This document shows, one piece after another, positions 2,724-60,834 of a DNA stretch of 64,000 nucleotides. Origin of the DNA: Acidobacteriota bacterium (GTDB taxonomy: Bacteria; Acidobacteriota; Thermoanaerobaculia; Gp7-AA8); NCBI GenBank assembly GCA_021325515.1, contig JAJPHC010000013.1, forward strand, positions 374,001-438,000, read 5' to 3'. Numbering within the stretch: the first letter of the stretch is position 1; each line of letters begins with the position of its first letter. The notes under the pieces were generated by a model that was not told the origin of the DNA, ran no database searches, and was given only the letters and a program-made list of their open reading frames with translations. The position numbers and the translations under genes are program-made.

Positions 2724-4016
2724 ATGCCAATGGAACGCTTCGTCGTCGAAGGTGGCCGCCGTCTCGAGGGATCGATCCGGCCGGGCGGGAACAAGAACGC
2801 AGCTCTGCCGATCCTCGCAGCATGTCTGCTCACCGACGAGCCGATCCTGTTGCGCAATCTGCCGGACATCGAAGACGTCCGTGTCATGCTGCAGATCCTC
2901 GAAGGGCTCGGCGCGAGCGTCGAGCGCATCGAGCGGAATGTGGTGCGGATTCACGCGAAGGGCGACTGCGGTTCCATGCCCGACGCCGCGCTTTCGAAGC
3001 GAATCCGCGCGTCGATTCTGCTCGCCGGTCCGCTGCTCGCACGCACCGGTTCCGCGTCGATCGCGAAGCCCGGCGGCGACGCGATCGGCCGCCGCCGCGT
3101 CGATACGCATCTCCTCGCACTCGAGGCCCTCGGTGCGCAGATCGAAGTCTCGGCGTACGAATACCGGATGAGCGCGCAGTCGCTGCGCGGCAAGAACATG
3201 TTCCTCGATGAAGCGTCGGTGACCGCCACCGAGAACGCGATCATGGCCGCGGTGCTGGCCGAGGGGGACACGCAGATCTACAACGCGGCGGCGGAGCCGC
3301 ACGTTCAGGACCTCTGCCGCTTTCTCAACAGCCTCGGCGCCAACATCGACGGCATTGCCTCGAACACGCTGAAGATTCGCGGCGTCGATTCGCTGCACGG
3401 CGGTGAGTTCACCATTCCCAGCGATCACATCGAAGTCGGTTCCTACATCGGCCTCGCGGCTGTGACGCGGAGCGAGCTCCTCATCGAGGACGCTGTGCCG
3501 CAGCACATGTACGCGGTGCGGCTCATGCTGGAGAAGCTCGGGATCGAGCTGCGCATCGAAGGCGACAACATCCGCGTGCCGCGCGATCAGGAGTTGCGCG
3601 TCCGATACGACATCGGTGCCGCGGTGCCGAAGATCGACGACGGGCCGTGGCCGCTGTTTCCCGCCGATCTCCTCTCGATCATGATCATCGTCGCCACGCA
3701 GGCGGAAGGGACGGTCATGATCTTCGAGAAGATGTTCGAGTCGCGCCTGTTCTTCACGGACAAGCTGATCTCGATGGGAGCGCGCATCATCCTCTGCGAC
3801 CCGCACCGCGCGATCATCGTCGGCGGAAACCGTCTGCAGGGAGCGGAGATCTCGAGCCCCGACATCCGTGCCGGCATGGCGCTGCTGCTCGCCGCGCTCT
3901 GTGCGAAGGGCGAGAGCGTGATTCACAACGTGCATCAGATCGATCGCGGCTACGAGCGGATCGAAGAGCGCCTGAATCCTCTCGGTGCGCGCATTCGCCG
4001 CGAGCGTGACGAGTAA
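2724..4016 (+). CDS. murA: UDP-N-acetylglucosamine 1-carboxyvinyltransferase MurA (Asp active-site variant)
   Basis: A 430-residue EPSP-synthase-fold enzyme with the GGNKNAALP signature at residues 21-29. MurA transfers enolpyruvate from PEP to UDP-GlcNAc, the first committed step of peptidoglycan synthesis in the cytoplasm. In the catalytic loop the usual GGCAIG is GGDAIG, so the fosfomycin-targeted cysteine is Asp119. Family knowledge says such C-to-D enzymes stay active and resist fosfomycin. The DDGPWPLFPADL segment resembles the MurA branch common in Bacteroidota rather than the E. coli type. A second in-frame ATG at 2730 is also possible. It heads an operon with folP, cdaA, ybbR and glmM; its stop codon lies inside a long inverted repeat. 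Confidence 0.95.
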   Translation: MPMERFVVEGGRRLEGSIRPGGNKNAALPILAACLLTDEPILLRNLPDIEDVRVMLQILEGLGASVERIERNVVRIHAKGDCGSMPDAALSKRIRASILLAGPLLARTGSASIAKPGGDAIGRRRVDTHLLALEALGAQIEVSAYEYRMSAQSLRGKNMFLDEASVTATENAIMAAVLAEGDTQIYNAAAEPHVQDLCRFLNSLGANIDGIASNTLKIRGVDSLHGGEFTIPSDHIEVGSYIGLAAVTRSELLIEDAVPQHMYAVRLMLEKLGIELRIEGDNIRVPRDQELRVRYDIGAAVPKIDDGPWPLFPADLLSIMIIVATQAEGTVMIFEKMFESRLFFTDKLISMGARIILCDPHRAIIVGGNRLQGAEISSPDIRAGMALLLAALCAKGESVIHNVHQIDRGYERIEERLNPLGARIRRERDE

Positions 4017-4120
4017 TGGACGAGTGACGAGTGACGAGTGTTGAGTGATGAGTACGCCGATCCGCCCCTTTCACTCATCACTCATCACTCGTCACTCGTC
4101 ACTCATCCATGACTCGTCAC
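4006..4120. repeat. 48-bp inverted repeat built of GAGTGACGA-type tandem units across the murA/folP junction
   Basis: Arms 4006-4053 and 4073-4120 are complementary at 45 of 48 positions, separated by 19 bases. Each arm is itself a tandem of GAGTGACGA/GAGTGATGA-like units. The left arm contains the last codons and TAA stop of murA. The right arm ends nine bases before the conserved start region of FolP and would be translated if folP began at 4045. Confidence 0.9.
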
Positions 4121-9747: not shown

Positions 9748-11484
<1,737 letters not shown>

Positions 11485-24165: not shown

Positions 24166-26093
24166 CCACGTCGAACAAGCGCATGCTGCAGCTCTTTGCC
24201 GGCCTCACGGTGTGGGCGCTGATCGTCATCGCGCGCCTCGTGCAGGTCCAGCTCGTCCGCCACAACTATTACATGCTGCGTGCGCAGCGCCAGCAGGAGC
24301 GGACGGTGACGCTGGCGCCGGTGCGCGGCTCGATCCTCGACGCACGCGGCCGCGTTCTCGGCGAGAGCGTCTCCGCCATCTCGCTCTATGCGGACCCGCA
24401 ACTCGTCACCGACCGGCACGCCGCGGCGAAGGCCCTGGCGGCGGTGCCCGGCATCGATCTGAGTGCGCGTGAGATCGAGGAGAAGCTGCACGACGATGGC
24501 GGTTTCGTCTGGATCGCGCGGCAGTTGCCGATGACCGCAGCGGCAGCCGTCAAGCAGTTGAAGATCGCCGGCGTCGCGACGATCGAGGAGCATCGCCGCT
24601 CCTATCCGCGCGGCACGCTCGCCGCGAACGTCATCGGCTATGTCGGTCTGGACGGCGAAGGCCTCGCCGGCATCGAGCACTCGTTCGACAACTACGTGAA
24701 GGGCCATGCGGGACGCGTCACGATTCTTCGCGACGCGCGCGCCGGGACGTACCTCGTCGGCGGCGACGGTCCGAATCGCACGATCGACGGGAACGACGTC
24801 GTTCTCACCATTGATTCGGTCGTGCAGTTCATCGCGGAGCAGGCGCTGGCGAAGGCGGTGGAGAAGTATCACGCGGCGGCCGGCTCCGCGCTCGTGATGG
24901 ATCCGCGCGACGGATCGATCCTCGCGATGGCCTCGGTCCCGACCTTCGATCCGAATCGCTTCGGCGATTTTCCTTCGGTCGCGTGGCGCAATCGCAACGT
25001 CCAGGACCTCTACGAGCCCGGCTCGACGTTCAAGATCGTCACGGCGTCCGCCGGCCTCGAAGAGGGAATGGTCACGCCGTCGCAGATCATCGACTGCGGC
25101 AATGGCTCCATCGAGATCGCCAACGTCGCGATCCACGAGCATGGTCACAACGCCTACGGAATGATTCCGTTCGAGGACGTGATGGTCCACTCCTCGAACG
25201 TCGGCGCGATCAAGGTCGGGCTCGCCGTCGGTCCGCGCCGCTTCTACGACTACATCCGCCGCTTTGGATTCGGCGAGCGCACCGGCGTGCAGCTTCCGGG
25301 CGAGGCCCAGGGGCTCGTGCGCCGCACCGAGAAGTGGTCGATGCTCTCGAACGCATCGATGTCCATCGGTCAGGAGATCGGTGTGACGCCGCTGCAGATC
25401 GCGCAGGCCACGGCGATCGTTGCGAACGGCGGCGTGCGCATCGCACCGCGCATCGTCGATCGCGTCGTCAACGCGAAGGGCGAGACCATTTATCAGCCGC
25501 AGCGCGTTCCACCCGTGCGCGTCATCTCCGAGAAGACGGCCGCGGTTCTGAACGAGATCCTCAAGGCCGTCGTCGCGCGCGGCACCGGCCTGCCTGCCGC
25601 GCTGCCGGAACATGTGGTCGCCGGCAAGACGGGGACCGCGCAGAAAGCGGGCCGGGGCGGTTACTCGCCCGACAAGTTCGTCGCGTCGTTCACCGGATAT
25701 GTGCCGGCCGATCGTCCGCGCCTCGTGATTCTCGTCGTCGTCGATGAGCCGAAGGGCTCGCAGTACGGAGGAACGATCGCCGCGCCCGTCTTCAGGGAGA
25801 TCGCCGAGGCGACGCTGCGATACCTCGGAGTGCCGCCGTCGATTCCGTCGCGCACGCTCGATCTTCATCCGCCGATGTTGGCGGAGTTCTCGCAACCACC
25901 GGCGCAGACGCAGCCCGGCGTCCCCGACCTGCGCGGCCTCGATGCACGAGCCGCGATCAGTCGTGCGGTCGCCGCCGGCTTGCAGGTGAGAGCGGTCGGG
26001 AGTGGCGTCGTCCAATCACAGACTCCGGAGCCGGGCCAGGCATTGCCTACGAATCGACTCATGACTCTCGCGTTCGCGGAGGTCGCGCGATGA
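24162..26093 (+). CDS. ftsI: Division-specific peptidoglycan transpeptidase FtsI (PBP3-type) with PASTA domain
   Basis: A 643-residue class B penicillin-binding protein that crosslinks septal peptidoglycan. One N-terminal membrane helix (about residues 8-30), a PBP dimer domain beginning APVRGSILDARGRVL, and a transpeptidase domain with active Ser288 (EPGSTFK), SSN at 344-346 and KTGT from Lys489. The C-terminal about 60 residues (PGVPDLRGLDARAAISRAV) form a single PASTA domain, common in Firmicutes, Actinobacteria and some other phyla but absent in E. coli FtsI. It overlaps ftsL by four bases and murE by four. Confidence 0.96.
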   Translation: MTTSNKRMLQLFAGLTVWALIVIARLVQVQLVRHNYYMLRAQRQQERTVTLAPVRGSILDARGRVLGESVSAISLYADPQLVTDRHAAAKALAAVPGIDLSAREIEEKLHDDGGFVWIARQLPMTAAAAVKQLKIAGVATIEEHRRSYPRGTLAANVIGYVGLDGEGLAGIEHSFDNYVKGHAGRVTILRDARAGTYLVGGDGPNRTIDGNDVVLTIDSVVQFIAEQALAKAVEKYHAAAGSALVMDPRDGSILAMASVPTFDPNRFGDFPSVAWRNRNVQDLYEPGSTFKIVTASAGLEEGMVTPSQIIDCGNGSIEIANVAIHEHGHNAYGMIPFEDVMVHSSNVGAIKVGLAVGPRRFYDYIRRFGFGERTGVQLPGEAQGLVRRTEKWSMLSNASMSIGQEIGVTPLQIAQATAIVANGGVRIAPRIVDRVVNAKGETIYQPQRVPPVRVISEKTAAVLNEILKAVVARGTGLPAALPEHVVAGKTGTAQKAGRGGYSPDKFVASFTGYVPADRPRLVILVVVDEPKGSQYGGTIAAPVFREIAEATLRYLGVPPSIPSRTLDLHPPMLAEFSQPPAQTQPGVPDLRGLDARAAISRAVAAGLQVRAVGSGVVQSQTPEPGQALPTNRLMTLAFAEVAR

Positions 26094-27556
26094 AGTTGCG
26101 CGATCTGCTGCGTGGTGTCCCCGTTCGGGCGCTGCACGGGAACGACGATGCCGATGTGTCGTCCGTGACGGCAGACTCGCGCCTCGTGAAGCCGGGCGCG
26201 CTCTTCGTCGCGATCCCCGGCACGGCGATGGACGGCGCGAAGTTCATCCCGCAGGCCGAGGAAAAAGGTGCAGTCGTGATCGTGACCTCGTCCCCCTCGC
26301 CGCGCGAAGCGGGGAGAGGGGCCAGGGGTGAGGGGCCGGTTGTAGAAGTCGACGACGCTCGCGAAGCTCTTGCCCTCATCGCCGCAAACTTCTACGGAAA
26401 CCCCGCCACGAAACTCGACATCGTCGGAGTCACCGGCACATCGGGAAAAACGACGACGACCAAGATGATCGAGTCGATCTTCGACGCGACGAACGAGCCG
26501 GTCGGTCTCATCGGAACGATTGAATATCGCGCAGGCGAAGAGCGGCTCAGCGCCGATCGAACGACGCCGGACGCCGTCGTGCTGCAGGAGTGGTTCGCCA
26601 AGATGGCCGGCGCTGGCGTCAGGCGTGCGGTCATGGAAGTCTCTTCGCACGCGCTTGCGCTGAAGCGGACGTACGGCGTGCGATTCAAGGCGGCCGTCTT
26701 CACCAACCTCTCGCAGGATCACTTCGATTTTCACAAGGACTTCGAAGACTACTTTCAGGCGAAGCGGATTCTCTTCACGCAGACGGATCGCTACGTCATC
26801 AACAACGATGACCCGTACGGCCGCCGGCTGATCAGCGAGTTCAGCGGCGCGATGACCTTCGGACGCGAGAACGCCGACATCACTCCGCAGGCGGACGTTT
26901 CCGTGCGAGGCCTTCACGGAATTCTGAAGACTCCCATCGGCGATGTCCGCCTCGAATCGCGGCTGATCGGCCTTCCGAATCTCTACAACTGGATGGGCGC
27001 AGTGGGGGCGGCGATTGCCGCCGGCTGTACGCGTGAGCAGATCGAAGAAGGGATTCGCAATCTCGCGGCGGTGCGCGGACGGTTCGAGAGCGTCGGCGAT
27101 GGTCCGACGGTCATCGTCGACTACGCGCACAAACCGGACGCGCTCGAGAAACTCCTGCATGCCGTCCGTGAGCTCGCGCAGGGGAAACGTCTGGTGCTGC
27201 TCTTCGGCTGCGGCGGTGATCGCGACAAGACGAAGCGGCCGCTCATGGGAGAGATCGGCGCGCGGCTGGCGGACGAGTTGATTCTGACCAGCGACAACCC
27301 GCGAAGTGAGAATCCGGAGCGGATCCTCGATGACATCGAGCGCGGAACGGGCGGCCGCCAGCACAGGCGGATTGCCGACCGCCGCGCTGCGATCGAAGGG
27401 GCGATTCTCGGTGCCGCGGAAGACGACGTCATCGTCATCGCCGGCAAGGGGCATGAGACGTATCAGGTGATCGGCGAGCGTGTCGTTCATTTCGATGACC
27501 GCGAAGAGGCGGAGCTCGCACTGAAAATGCGGCGTCAAAAGACACATGGAAAATGA
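26090..27556 (+). CDS. murE: UDP-MurNAc-L-Ala-D-Glu:meso-diaminopimelate ligase MurE, with repeat-encoded insert
   Basis: A 488-residue Mur ligase that adds the third peptide residue. It has the P-loop GVTGTSGKTTTTK, the SSHALAL segment and the DNPR motif (402-405), which selects meso-diaminopimelate over lysine. Residues 67-83 (SSPSPREAGRGARGEGP) interrupt the N-terminal UDP-binding domain between two strands and are encoded by a palindromic repeat also found between genes. The insert sits in a surface loop and the frame stays open, so the enzyme is probably functional. It overlaps ftsI by four bases. Confidence 0.96.
   Translation: MKLRDLLRGVPVRALHGNDDADVSSVTADSRLVKPGALFVAIPGTAMDGAKFIPQAEEKGAVVIVTSSPSPREAGRGARGEGPVVEVDDAREALALIAANFYGNPATKLDIVGVTGTSGKTTTTKMIESIFDATNEPVGLIGTIEYRAGEERLSADRTTPDAVVLQEWFAKMAGAGVRRAVMEVSSHALALKRTYGVRFKAAVFTNLSQDHFDFHKDFEDYFQAKRILFTQTDRYVINNDDPYGRRLISEFSGAMTFGRENADITPQADVSVRGLHGILKTPIGDVRLESRLIGLPNLYNWMGAVGAAIAAGCTREQIEEGIRNLAAVRGRFESVGDGPTVIVDYAHKPDALEKLLHAVRELAQGKRLVLLFGCGGDRDKTKRPLMGEIGARLADELILTSDNPRSENPERILDDIERGTGGRQHRRIADRRAAIEGAILGAAEDDVIVIAGKGHETYQVIGERVVHFDDREEAELALKMRRQKTHGK
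26289..26338. repeat. Palindromic 50-bp repeat inserted in-frame in murE
   Basis: The segment is identical at 47 of 50 positions to the reverse complement of 60771-60820, an intergenic copy, and at 40 of 50 to 10294-10343 in the PAPS synthetase gene. It contains a near-palindrome, CCGCGCGAAGCGGGG flanked by CCCCTC/GAGGGG. Confidence 0.9.
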
Positions 27557-51429: not shown

Positions 51430-51453
51430 GGTTACGCCGCGGAACTCAGCAAG

Positions 51454-51557
51454 GATGGGACCATGAGACGGATAGGACGGATGGGACGGATGGGTAGAAC
51501 CGTTATTTCGTCGGTCCCATCGGTCCTATCCGTCCTATCCGTCCTATTCGTCCCATC
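51454..51557. repeat. Inverted repeat of 9-bp units (GGACGGATR) between mreB and mreC
   Basis: A left arm of GACGGATRG nonamers (51454-51494) and a right arm of their complement, CCTATCCGT nonamers (51513-51557), can pair over about 40 bases with several mismatches. The array fills most of the mreB-mreC gap and stops three bases before the mreB stop codon region at 51560. Confidence 0.8.
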
Positions 51558-56294: not shown

Positions 56295-56674
56295 TGTCCG
56301 GGATCGCGCCGAAGTGGAACGAGCCGGCGATCCGCGTGCTGATGATGCCGCGGGATACGAATGCGCACGGCACGATCTTCGGCGGCGTGATCCTTTCCTA
56401 CATCGACCAGGCTGGCGCGATCGAAGCGCGCCGGCAGGGCCTGCAGTTCATGGTCACCGTCTCGATGGACAAGGTCGTGTTTCACGAGCCGGTCTTCGTC
56501 GGTGACCTCGTCAGCTTCTGGACCGAGACTCTCCGCATCGGCAATACCTCGATTACGACGAAGGTCGTGGTCGAGGTCATTCGCGGCGGCAGCGAGCGCA
56601 AGACCGTCACCGAAGCTCAGGTCGTCTACGTCAACATCGGCGACGACCGGAAGCCGAAGGCGATTCGGAACTGA
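56294..56674 (+). CDS. Acyl-CoA thioesterase (YciA/hot-dog fold)
   Basis: A 126-residue single hot-dog domain: MMPRDTNAHGTIFGGVILSYIDQAG is the catalytic N/D-H-G region of YciA/BFIT-type thioesterases, followed by VSMDKVVFHEPVFVGDLVSF. It hydrolyses acyl-CoA esters in the cytoplasm; chain-length preference cannot be read from the sequence. The GTG start shares a base with the ppiD stop, so the genes are coupled. Its own stop codon touches a long AAAATTG inverted repeat. Confidence 0.92.
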   Translation: MSGIAPKWNEPAIRVLMMPRDTNAHGTIFGGVILSYIDQAGAIEARRQGLQFMVTVSMDKVVFHEPVFVGDLVSFWTETLRIGNTSITTKVVVEVIRGGSERKTVTEAQVVYVNIGDDRKPKAIRN

Positions 56675-56757
56675 AAATTGAAAATTGAAAATTGAAAATT
56701 GAAAATGAATTCGGGCGTGCCGTTCATTTTCAATTTTCAATTTTCAATTTTCAATTT
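56675..56757. repeat. Perfect 35-bp inverted repeat of AAAATTG heptamers between thioesterase and rarA
   Basis: Arms 56675-56709 and 56723-56757 are perfectly complementary with a 13-base GC-rich loop. Each arm is a run of AAAATTG/GAAAATT heptamers. The left arm starts right after the thioesterase stop, and the rarA stop codon lies inside the right arm. The AT-rich element contrasts with the GC-rich surroundings and could terminate both convergent genes. Confidence 0.95.
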
Positions 56758-59148: not shown

Positions 59149-60759
59149 ATGTGGAGATGGGTTACCACCCGCGGCCTGGTTCTCACTGCAGTCCTTTCGC
59201 TGTTTGCGCCGGGGCTTACCGCGCAGTCTACGGATGTGATTGCATCCGTCGATAGCCCTGATCCGGCAGTCGTGCAGTCGGGAGAGGTGCTCGTCAGGGG
59301 TTGGGCGATTCCGCCGACGAACTCGAACATCACGAAGATCGAGCTCTACGTCGACGATCAGTACCAATACCAGACCAATCGCAACCTCCCGCGAATCGAC
59401 ATCGTCGAGGCGTTTCCGAACTATCCCGGTATTCAGCAGATCGCGCCGGGGTTCCAGAGCGGGTTCAATTCGGCCCGCTTCACGAACGGAGCGCACACCG
59501 TCTACGTGCTGATCACGACCGCGGACAATCGCGTGTTCGAAGTCGGCCGGCGGACGATCACGATCGACAACACGCTGAATCAGCAGCCGTTCGGCTCCGT
59601 CGACATTCCGGGCATCGGTGCGGCGTACAACGCCAGCAGCTCGTTCCCGGTCCTCGGCTGGGCGCTCGACACGGACGGCATTCAGCGCGTCGACGTGCAG
59701 ATCGATGACGGCAGCATGCAGCCGGTGCAGTATGGCGATGCGCGACCTGATGTCGCTGTTGCATTCCCCGATCTGCCGATCGCGCTCTACAGCGGATTCA
59801 TCGCGAACATCGACACGACGCGCATTCCTGACGGAGTGCACCAGCTCGTGGTGTACGCAACGGATCGCCAGGGACTGCGCCGCCAGCTCGGCCGCCGCAC
59901 GATTCAGGTTCTCAACAGCGAGAACACGACGAAGCCGTTCGGCTACATCGACGAACCGAAGCGCGACGCCGTGCTGTTCGGCAGCCGCTGCGGAACGACG
60001 CCGATCATTTCGCCGATTCCTCTGAATCCGCAGGCGCACATCACGCCGGTTCGCGGCTGGGCGCTCGACGTTGCCCCGCGCAGCGATGTCGGCCGCGTGT
60101 CGTACGTCGAGCTTCTGGTCGACGGCGTCCGCTGGATCTCCACCGACGACTGCTTCTACTACGCACAATTCGGCGCCTATGCGAACTGCTACGGCCTGCC
60201 GCGTTATGACGTCGAGCGTTTCTATCCGAACTATCCGGATGCTCCGCGCTCCGGCTTCATGTTCACGCTCGATGTCGGCGCGCTCCTCGCCCTCGGCGTC
60301 CCGCCGGGACATCACGTCCTGAAAGTCCGCGTCGGCGATCAACAGGGCAACGTCTCCGAAATCCCGAGCCGCGATGGACTGCCGGTCTTCTTCCAGTGCG
60401 CCGGCGATAAGAGTCCTGCCGCCGCATTCGGCTTCATCGACATCCCTGCTCCGTATGACTACATGAAGGGGACCGTAACGTTCTCCGGCTGGGCACTCAC
60501 CGACGTCGTGAACGTCAATGCGGTCGTCATCATGATCGACGGCGATCGTTACGGCACCGCGCAGTACGGATTCCCGCGTCCCGACGTCGCGCAGCAGTAT
60601 CCGCAGATTTTCGCGAGCGCTCTCTCCGGATGGCGCTTCACGATGGATACGACGAAGCTGACGAACGGACGCCACCGTCTCACGGTCATCGTGCAGGACG
60701 GCGTCGGCGGCAACTACGAAATCGGCTCGGAAGACTTCTTCACGAACAACATCCAGTAG
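59149..60759 (+). CDS. Secreted protein with four Ig-like repeats
   Basis: A 536-residue exported protein from the ATG at 59149 (MWRWVTTRGLVLTAVLSLFAPGLTAQ signal peptide) with GGAGG eight bases upstream; the ATG at 59128 is less likely. Four repeats of about 100-160 residues share a GWA-D core, a paired VDIDG strand, RPDV-FP-P and SGF blocks, and a GxHxL strand, as in Ig-like surface domains common in Acidobacteriota. The third repeat is longer and contains four Cys. No sorting signal or enzyme motif is seen. Probable cell-surface or periplasmic binding protein. Confidence 0.78.
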   Translation: MWRWVTTRGLVLTAVLSLFAPGLTAQSTDVIASVDSPDPAVVQSGEVLVRGWAIPPTNSNITKIELYVDDQYQYQTNRNLPRIDIVEAFPNYPGIQQIAPGFQSGFNSARFTNGAHTVYVLITTADNRVFEVGRRTITIDNTLNQQPFGSVDIPGIGAAYNASSSFPVLGWALDTDGIQRVDVQIDDGSMQPVQYGDARPDVAVAFPDLPIALYSGFIANIDTTRIPDGVHQLVVYATDRQGLRRQLGRRTIQVLNSENTTKPFGYIDEPKRDAVLFGSRCGTTPIISPIPLNPQAHITPVRGWALDVAPRSDVGRVSYVELLVDGVRWISTDDCFYYAQFGAYANCYGLPRYDVERFYPNYPDAPRSGFMFTLDVGALLALGVPPGHHVLKVRVGDQQGNVSEIPSRDGLPVFFQCAGDKSPAAAFGFIDIPAPYDYMKGTVTFSGWALTDVVNVNAVVIMIDGDRYGTAQYGFPRPDVAQQYPQIFASALSGWRFTMDTTKLTNGRHRLTVIVQDGVGGNYEIGSEDFFTNNIQ

Positions 60760-60770
60760 CTTTTCAATTA

Positions 60771-60834
60771 CGGCCCCTCACTCCTGGCCCCTCTCCCCGC
60801 TTTGCGGGGCGAGGGGGACGGTGATGAGGGGCCG
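60771..60834. repeat. Palindromic repeat (intergenic copy of the murE/PAPS-synthetase element)
   Basis: A 64-base element between two convergent genes. Outer arms CGGCCCCTCA (60771-60780) and TGAGGGGCCG (60825-60834) pair perfectly; the centre is CCCCGC-TTT-GCGGGG. Its first 50 bases, reverse-complemented, match the murE insert at 47 of 50 positions. It may act as a bidirectional terminator here. Confidence 0.9.

Follow-up and report, generated by a model that had tools for sequence, protein, structure and literature searches.

A 48-nt palindromic repeat resembling Escherichia coli BoxC occurs within protein genes of an Acidobacteriota-related genome

A palindromic sequence within murE belongs to a family of short repeats that lies in frame in at least 12 protein genes of one genome, in several reading frames and in both orientations. 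The family is in all likelihood a lineage-expanded, non-autonomous repeat of the REP class with BoxC/PIT/TM anatomy, which spreads as selfish DNA and is tolerated in gene loops.

The window, the whole 64,000-nt stretch of DNA that was analysed, is part of contig C51 of a 5.38 Mb genome assembled in 63 contigs. Its copies of the element and their host genes are as follows.

9748..11484, + strand: sat-cysC, host gene, bifunctional ATP sulfurylase/APS kinase (NCBIfam PRK05537, 789 bits)
10294..10341, + strand: diverged element copy in sat-cysC (covariance model, 53.6 bits); encodes most of a 17-letter peptide, +17 aa relative to orthologues
26090..27556, + strand: murE, host gene, UDP-MurNAc-tripeptide synthetase (NCBIfam PRK00139, 543 bits)
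26289..26336, + strand: 48-nt element copy in murE (covariance model, 71.0 bits); encodes most of SSPSPREAGRGARGEGP, MurE residues ~67-83
60773..60820, - strand: intergenic element copy (79.7 bits), directly past the stop codon of a + strand ORF that ends at 60759
60821..60834, + strand: candidate tail-like extra segment GGTGATGAGGGGCC, read from the sequence, adjoining the intergenic copy

The original prediction had described copies in murE (26289-26338, + strand), in sat-cysC (10294-10343, + strand) and, as the reverse complement, between genes (60771-60820). Direct reading of the sequence finds all three at these places and reproduces the identities proposed relative to the murE copy (47/50 for the intergenic copy and 40/50 for sat-cysC); the two encoded peptides, read one base apart, were also given correctly. 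A 46-nt core, searched with three or fewer mismatches, matches the window twice, at the intergenic copy and at its own site in murE, and has no match in 100 shuffles. The segment GGTGATGAGGGGCC at 60821..60834 may be what is left of another element in the opposite orientation.

The window also holds three inverted pairs of simple repeats. At 4006-4120, imperfect heptamer arrays (GACGAGT and TCACTCA) face each other, with a 48-nt inverted pair that is 94% complementary and 19 nt apart. Five perfect TGAAAAT heptamers at 56672-56757 are followed, about 20 nt on, by inverted copies (ATTTTCA), and include a perfect 35-nt inverted pair. The third pair (51453-51557) consists of nonamer repeats GGATGGGAC opposite an inverted array GTCCTATCC.

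A genome-wide search with blastn and a covariance model, the check that had been proposed for the repeat, located about 66 distinct sites. Some copies are 100% identical to the consensus and others only about 67%, and the family therefore holds both fresh and old copies. The repeat unit is 48 nt long (16 codons) and sharply bounded, with consensus CGTCCCCCTCGCCCCGCAAAGCGGGGAGAGGGGCCAGGGGTGAGGGGC. In the alignment of 66 copies, per-column conservation is 83-100% over the tag, stems and tail, and lower in the loop and at columns 4, 11 and 34; it drops from 85% at base 48 to 36-42% just outside the unit. About 15 of the 66 copies are internal to genes, an approximate figure since copies without an orthologue alignment were classed by codon scores, and on inspection C2:297653 seems to be one more coding copy. 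In three places (C36:67404/68087, C39:49784/50557 and C2:296939/297653), two elements of opposite orientation lie 683-773 bp from each other, compared with 0.64 such pairs expected by chance (P ~0.03). Two of the three pairs are within one gene, and C39:50557 is a weak match.

The unit consists of a hairpin and, behind it, a conserved purine tail whose sequence mirrors that of the 3′ arm. The consensus order is CCCCTCGCCCC-GCAAAGC-GGGGAGAGGGG-CCA-GGGGTGAGGGG, or Y11-loop-R11-CCA-R11. Folding as single-stranded DNA gives a hairpin (z -2.4) with an imperfect 6+1+6 stem of 13 positions, which contains a G/A mismatch, and a loop of about 3 nt; the CGTC tag, as well as CCA and the GGGGTGAGGGGC tail, are unpaired. 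The tag reads CGTC in 42 and CGTT in 14 of the 66 copies, and the 3-nt CCA-like segment directly after the stem is conserved at 71% (C), 86% (C) and 92% (A). The purine tail, which mirrors the GGGGAGAGGGG arm, is 83-92% conserved despite having no Watson-Crick partner. Compensatory covariation among the copies was limited to one double change, which is not above shuffles, and structural selection is not demonstrated. From the sequence, we infer that the unit may fold as a triplex.

The length of the unit bears directly on its fate in genes. As 48 nt are divisible by three, precise insertion of the unit leaves the frame of the host gene intact, and the gains seen in protein-level comparison, 48 and 51 bp, fit such insertion. 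On the + strand of the consensus, one frame encodes a 16-letter peptide and another SPSPRKAGRGARGEGP, while the third runs into a TGA in GGGGTGAGGGG, except where the loop has a different length. None of the three reverse frames is interrupted, such that five of the six frames have no stop codon. A copy that falls in a surface loop can thus survive as a flexible peptide of 16-17 residues. The host genes use phases 0, 1 and 2 on the + strand as well as reverse orientations, and the proposal that reading frames stay open around the intragenic copies extends to many unrelated protein genes. At four gene ends, the TGA of the unit supplies the stop codon of the upstream gene.

The original prediction placed the insertions at positions where relatives are shorter, which is clearly confirmed for Sat-CysC. 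The interval between LLEA and NVVAF contains 25 residues here, compared to 8 in 102 of 105 orthologues, a clean gain of 17 aa. These orthologues range from the same family to other phyla, including Chloroflexi, Acidobacteria and Planctomycetes, and the closest named relatives are Thermoanaerobaculia/Acidobacteria. The insert is also a gap relative to PDB 2gks. In the AlphaFold model of the protein, which is of low confidence (mean pLDDT 69), it is placed between a helix (173-181) and a strand (205-208).

For MurE, the same proposal is less well borne out. The insert lies in an N-terminal domain loop that varies widely in length from one relative to another, and at this position two relatives of the same family carry unrelated sequence that is about as long or longer. 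Taken alone, the MurE site is therefore a weak example of insertion. AlphaFold places the insert between two strands, 63-66 and 84-87, with very low confidence (pLDDT <50 at residues 74-78). The nearest relatives belong to other genera, with MurE identities of 64-71%, which limits the comparison of occupied and empty sites to the protein level.

Additional host genes extend these observations. HisC is longer by 16 aa than all aligned orthologues of the same family, and its insert is also a gap relative to PDB 3euc. An ABC-F protein has gained 17 aa from an element in reversed orientation, and another copy lies in the same gene, in the linker that precedes the C-terminal domain. At the level of protein sequence, empty sites show insertion for three proteins. 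In CtaA and in a TldD-like protein, where the element sits in a variable linker, the net gain is small, about one residue and a few residues, respectively; the element therefore either replaced loop sequence there or the loops were later trimmed. Further coding copies are found in ApbE, an RlmD/TrmA-like enzyme, a PxpB-PxpC fusion, a PAP2 protein, an FG-GAP protein and an ArsA-type ATPase, where the copy lies between the two ATPase units. In a relative (G006, L300), a different palindromic unit, with peptide PLTPALSPGEGG, appears to enter the same ABC-F gene near its 3′ part.

Outside this genome, the full-length degenerate pattern had no exact match in the GTDB contig collection of 84,980 species, from which the source genome itself may be left out; the exact version of the repeat thus appears to be lineage-specific. 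Related units are found on Sinorhizobium, Rhizobium and Cupriavidus plasmids, with the same Y-R-R order on those of Sinorhizobium and Cupriavidus. Two relatives, G009 and G129, have related units within longer composites. In G009 (L333 and others), the hairpin-plus-tail unit sits inside a longer conserved repeat with AAACGTTCGATCG... upstream, and in G129 (L332 and others) inside one with ...CTAGGCTGGATCTTGAAGCTC downstream, which suggests that these may be composite repeat units.

The favoured explanation is selfish spread. A non-autonomous unit, consisting of the imperfect 13-position hairpin (Y11/R11), CCA and the second purine tract, would be copied when it folds as a single-stranded hairpin or triplex during replication, either by an HUH transposase acting in trans or by replication template switching. 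Intragenic copies would then be the few tolerated survivors rather than domesticated parts. Since genomes of this kind are mostly coding, the small fraction of copies that lie within genes suggests that most insertions into genes were purged, with those in loops and linkers left. A further-reaching version of this account is possible but less likely: the element may be a triplex-forming, BoxC-type repeat turned protein-insertion element, whose 48 nt and five open frames would permit repeated invasion of genes without frameshift, with copying that is structure-driven and independent of a transposase. In that case, some host proteins would gain flexible segments from a single DNA unit in different frames and on both strands.

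A transposase of the host is another candidate route, in which the repeat would be a REPIN mobilised by a dedicated RAYT (Y1 HUH transposase) of the source genome. The genome has seven Y1_Tnp matches, one of them in a RAYT-sized frame of 177 aa (C61:122123), and GTAG REPs elsewhere are associated with RAYTs (PMC3733652). However, the GTAG tag is absent, and the six listed Y1_Tnp genes have no element closer to them than about 8 kb, which makes this route unlikely; since no listed gene is near a copy, non-autonomous spread through single-stranded hairpin or triplex intermediates is favoured.

It is less probable still that a true Rickettsia-type palindromic element of the CGTC-REP family reached this lineage. 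The CGTC/CGTT start and CCA-like tail after the stem, found together in 56 of the 66 copies, agree with the description of CGTC repeats (PMC3733652), as do in-frame intragenic copies and the absence of an adjacent transposase. The stem of 13 C/G-rich positions, the loop of about 3 nt and the extra purine tail do not, and the full unit fits BoxC better.

It is highly improbable that the intragenic copies are domesticated and serve their proteins as a useful loop or tail, a role that has been the subject of speculation for REPs in repair genes. Copies inside genes have, on average, decayed no further than those elsewhere (mean 91.4% of consensus, compared to 89.1%), but the host functions are unrelated, the positions are loops and linkers, and the low confidence of the MurE insert is as expected of a disordered loop. 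Convergence of Ser/Pro/Arg/Gly-rich loops of low complexity, without insertion, is scarcely credible as the reason for the similarity in genes: weak matches, such as those at C30:45825 and C2:255152, may be due to chance, as the coding sequence there is conserved or of low complexity, but in the family the nucleotides are conserved while the peptide changes with frame and strand. As the source of the repeat itself, chance or low complexity is ruled out by the shuffles and by this frame-independent nucleotide identity.

Rickettsia palindromic elements (RPEs) are often treated as an oddity of that genus, and BoxC/PIT triplex repeats as a curiosity found between genes in Proteobacteria. The unit described here is of BoxC type and acts like an RPE in another phylum. 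The conserved enzymes that carry it serve wall, histidine, sulfate and haem metabolism, and one of the genes is the essential murE. With about 66 fresh and diverged copies, the family is a tractable set for the study of repeat movement and of the tolerance of proteins to the sudden insertion of a peptide.

No Rfam family was detected in the window at the gathering threshold, and the element was compared with published repeats. It resembles GTAG-REPs and REPINs as a short dispersed palindrome that is mostly intergenic, sometimes intragenic (as, for example, in O. terrae) and sometimes a source of stop codons, but differs in lacking both the GTAG tag and a flanking RAYT.

The proposed RPE-like behaviour outside the phylum of Rickettsia is supported, with in-frame copies in unrelated genes, more than one frame in use, and nearest named orthologues in Thermoanaerobaculia/Acidobacteria. 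RPE-4, RPE-6 and other RPEs are likewise palindromes in frame in many unrelated protein genes, in different frames, with CGTC at one end. Sequence was compared at this terminus; stem length, loop and, apparently, overall sequence differ, the purine tail is extra, and the host is a large genome of an unrelated phylum rather than a reduced, intracellular one. RPE-4 and RPE-6 belong to the CGTC repeats, which have a CGTC tag and a CCA-like tail and are found without an adjacent transposase; their published families have stems of 8-9 bp, almost invariably starting with AT, and loops of 4-5 nt (PMC3733652). The element shares the unpaired terminal CGTC tag, the unpaired 3-nt CCA-like tail, intragenic units and the lack of an associated transposase, but its 6+1+6 stem begins with CC and its loop is about 3 nt. 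Because stem length and composition differ, it is not a member of the published CGTC families, and a place among RPE-type sequences as such is not supported: its anatomy is that of BoxC/PIT/TM (PMC4666352), with a stem of 13 positions compared to 8-9 bp (PMC3733652). Acidobacteriota are not among the five phyla listed for CGTC-REPs, and intragenic GTAG and CGTC repeats were described from several phyla in 2013 (PMC3733652); palindromes in genes outside Rickettsia are therefore not new.

Judged by its order of tracts, the closest known relative of the element is the E. coli BoxC/PIT/TM intrastrand-triplex repeat. The TM_ECO intrastrand triplex motif, identical with BoxC and the PIT element, has Y-R-R order (PMC4666352). 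An E. coli copy reads CGGTCCCCTCGCCCCTTTGGGGAGAGGGTTAGGGTGAGGGGC (PMC4666352, Table 1), and its order, tail and G/A stem mismatch match those of the element, which runs CGxxCCCCTCGCCCC - loop - GGGGAGAGGG - 3 nt - GGGTGAGGGGC. Both have mirrored second and third tracts and a 3-nt second loop, and both are dispersed short repeats without mobile-element association and with some close inverted pairs. The element differs in its longer first loop (GCAAAGC), its 11-nt rather than 9-nt tracts, its CCA linker (TTA/CCG in TM_ECO) and a host outside Proteobacteria. The strict TM_ECO pattern (CCCTCNCCCN3-6GGGNGAGGGN3GGGNGAGGG) matches none of the 66 copies because the first loop is longer, which marks the repeat as a distinct family of the BoxC/TM type; with longer loops allowed, 21 copies match exactly. 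TM_ECO is reported to be always intergenic in E. coli MG1655 (PMC4666352), in contrast to the roughly 15 of 66 copies within genes here. In the open papers searched, and to our knowledge, a BoxC-type unit inside genes of an Acidobacteriota-related genome is a new variant.
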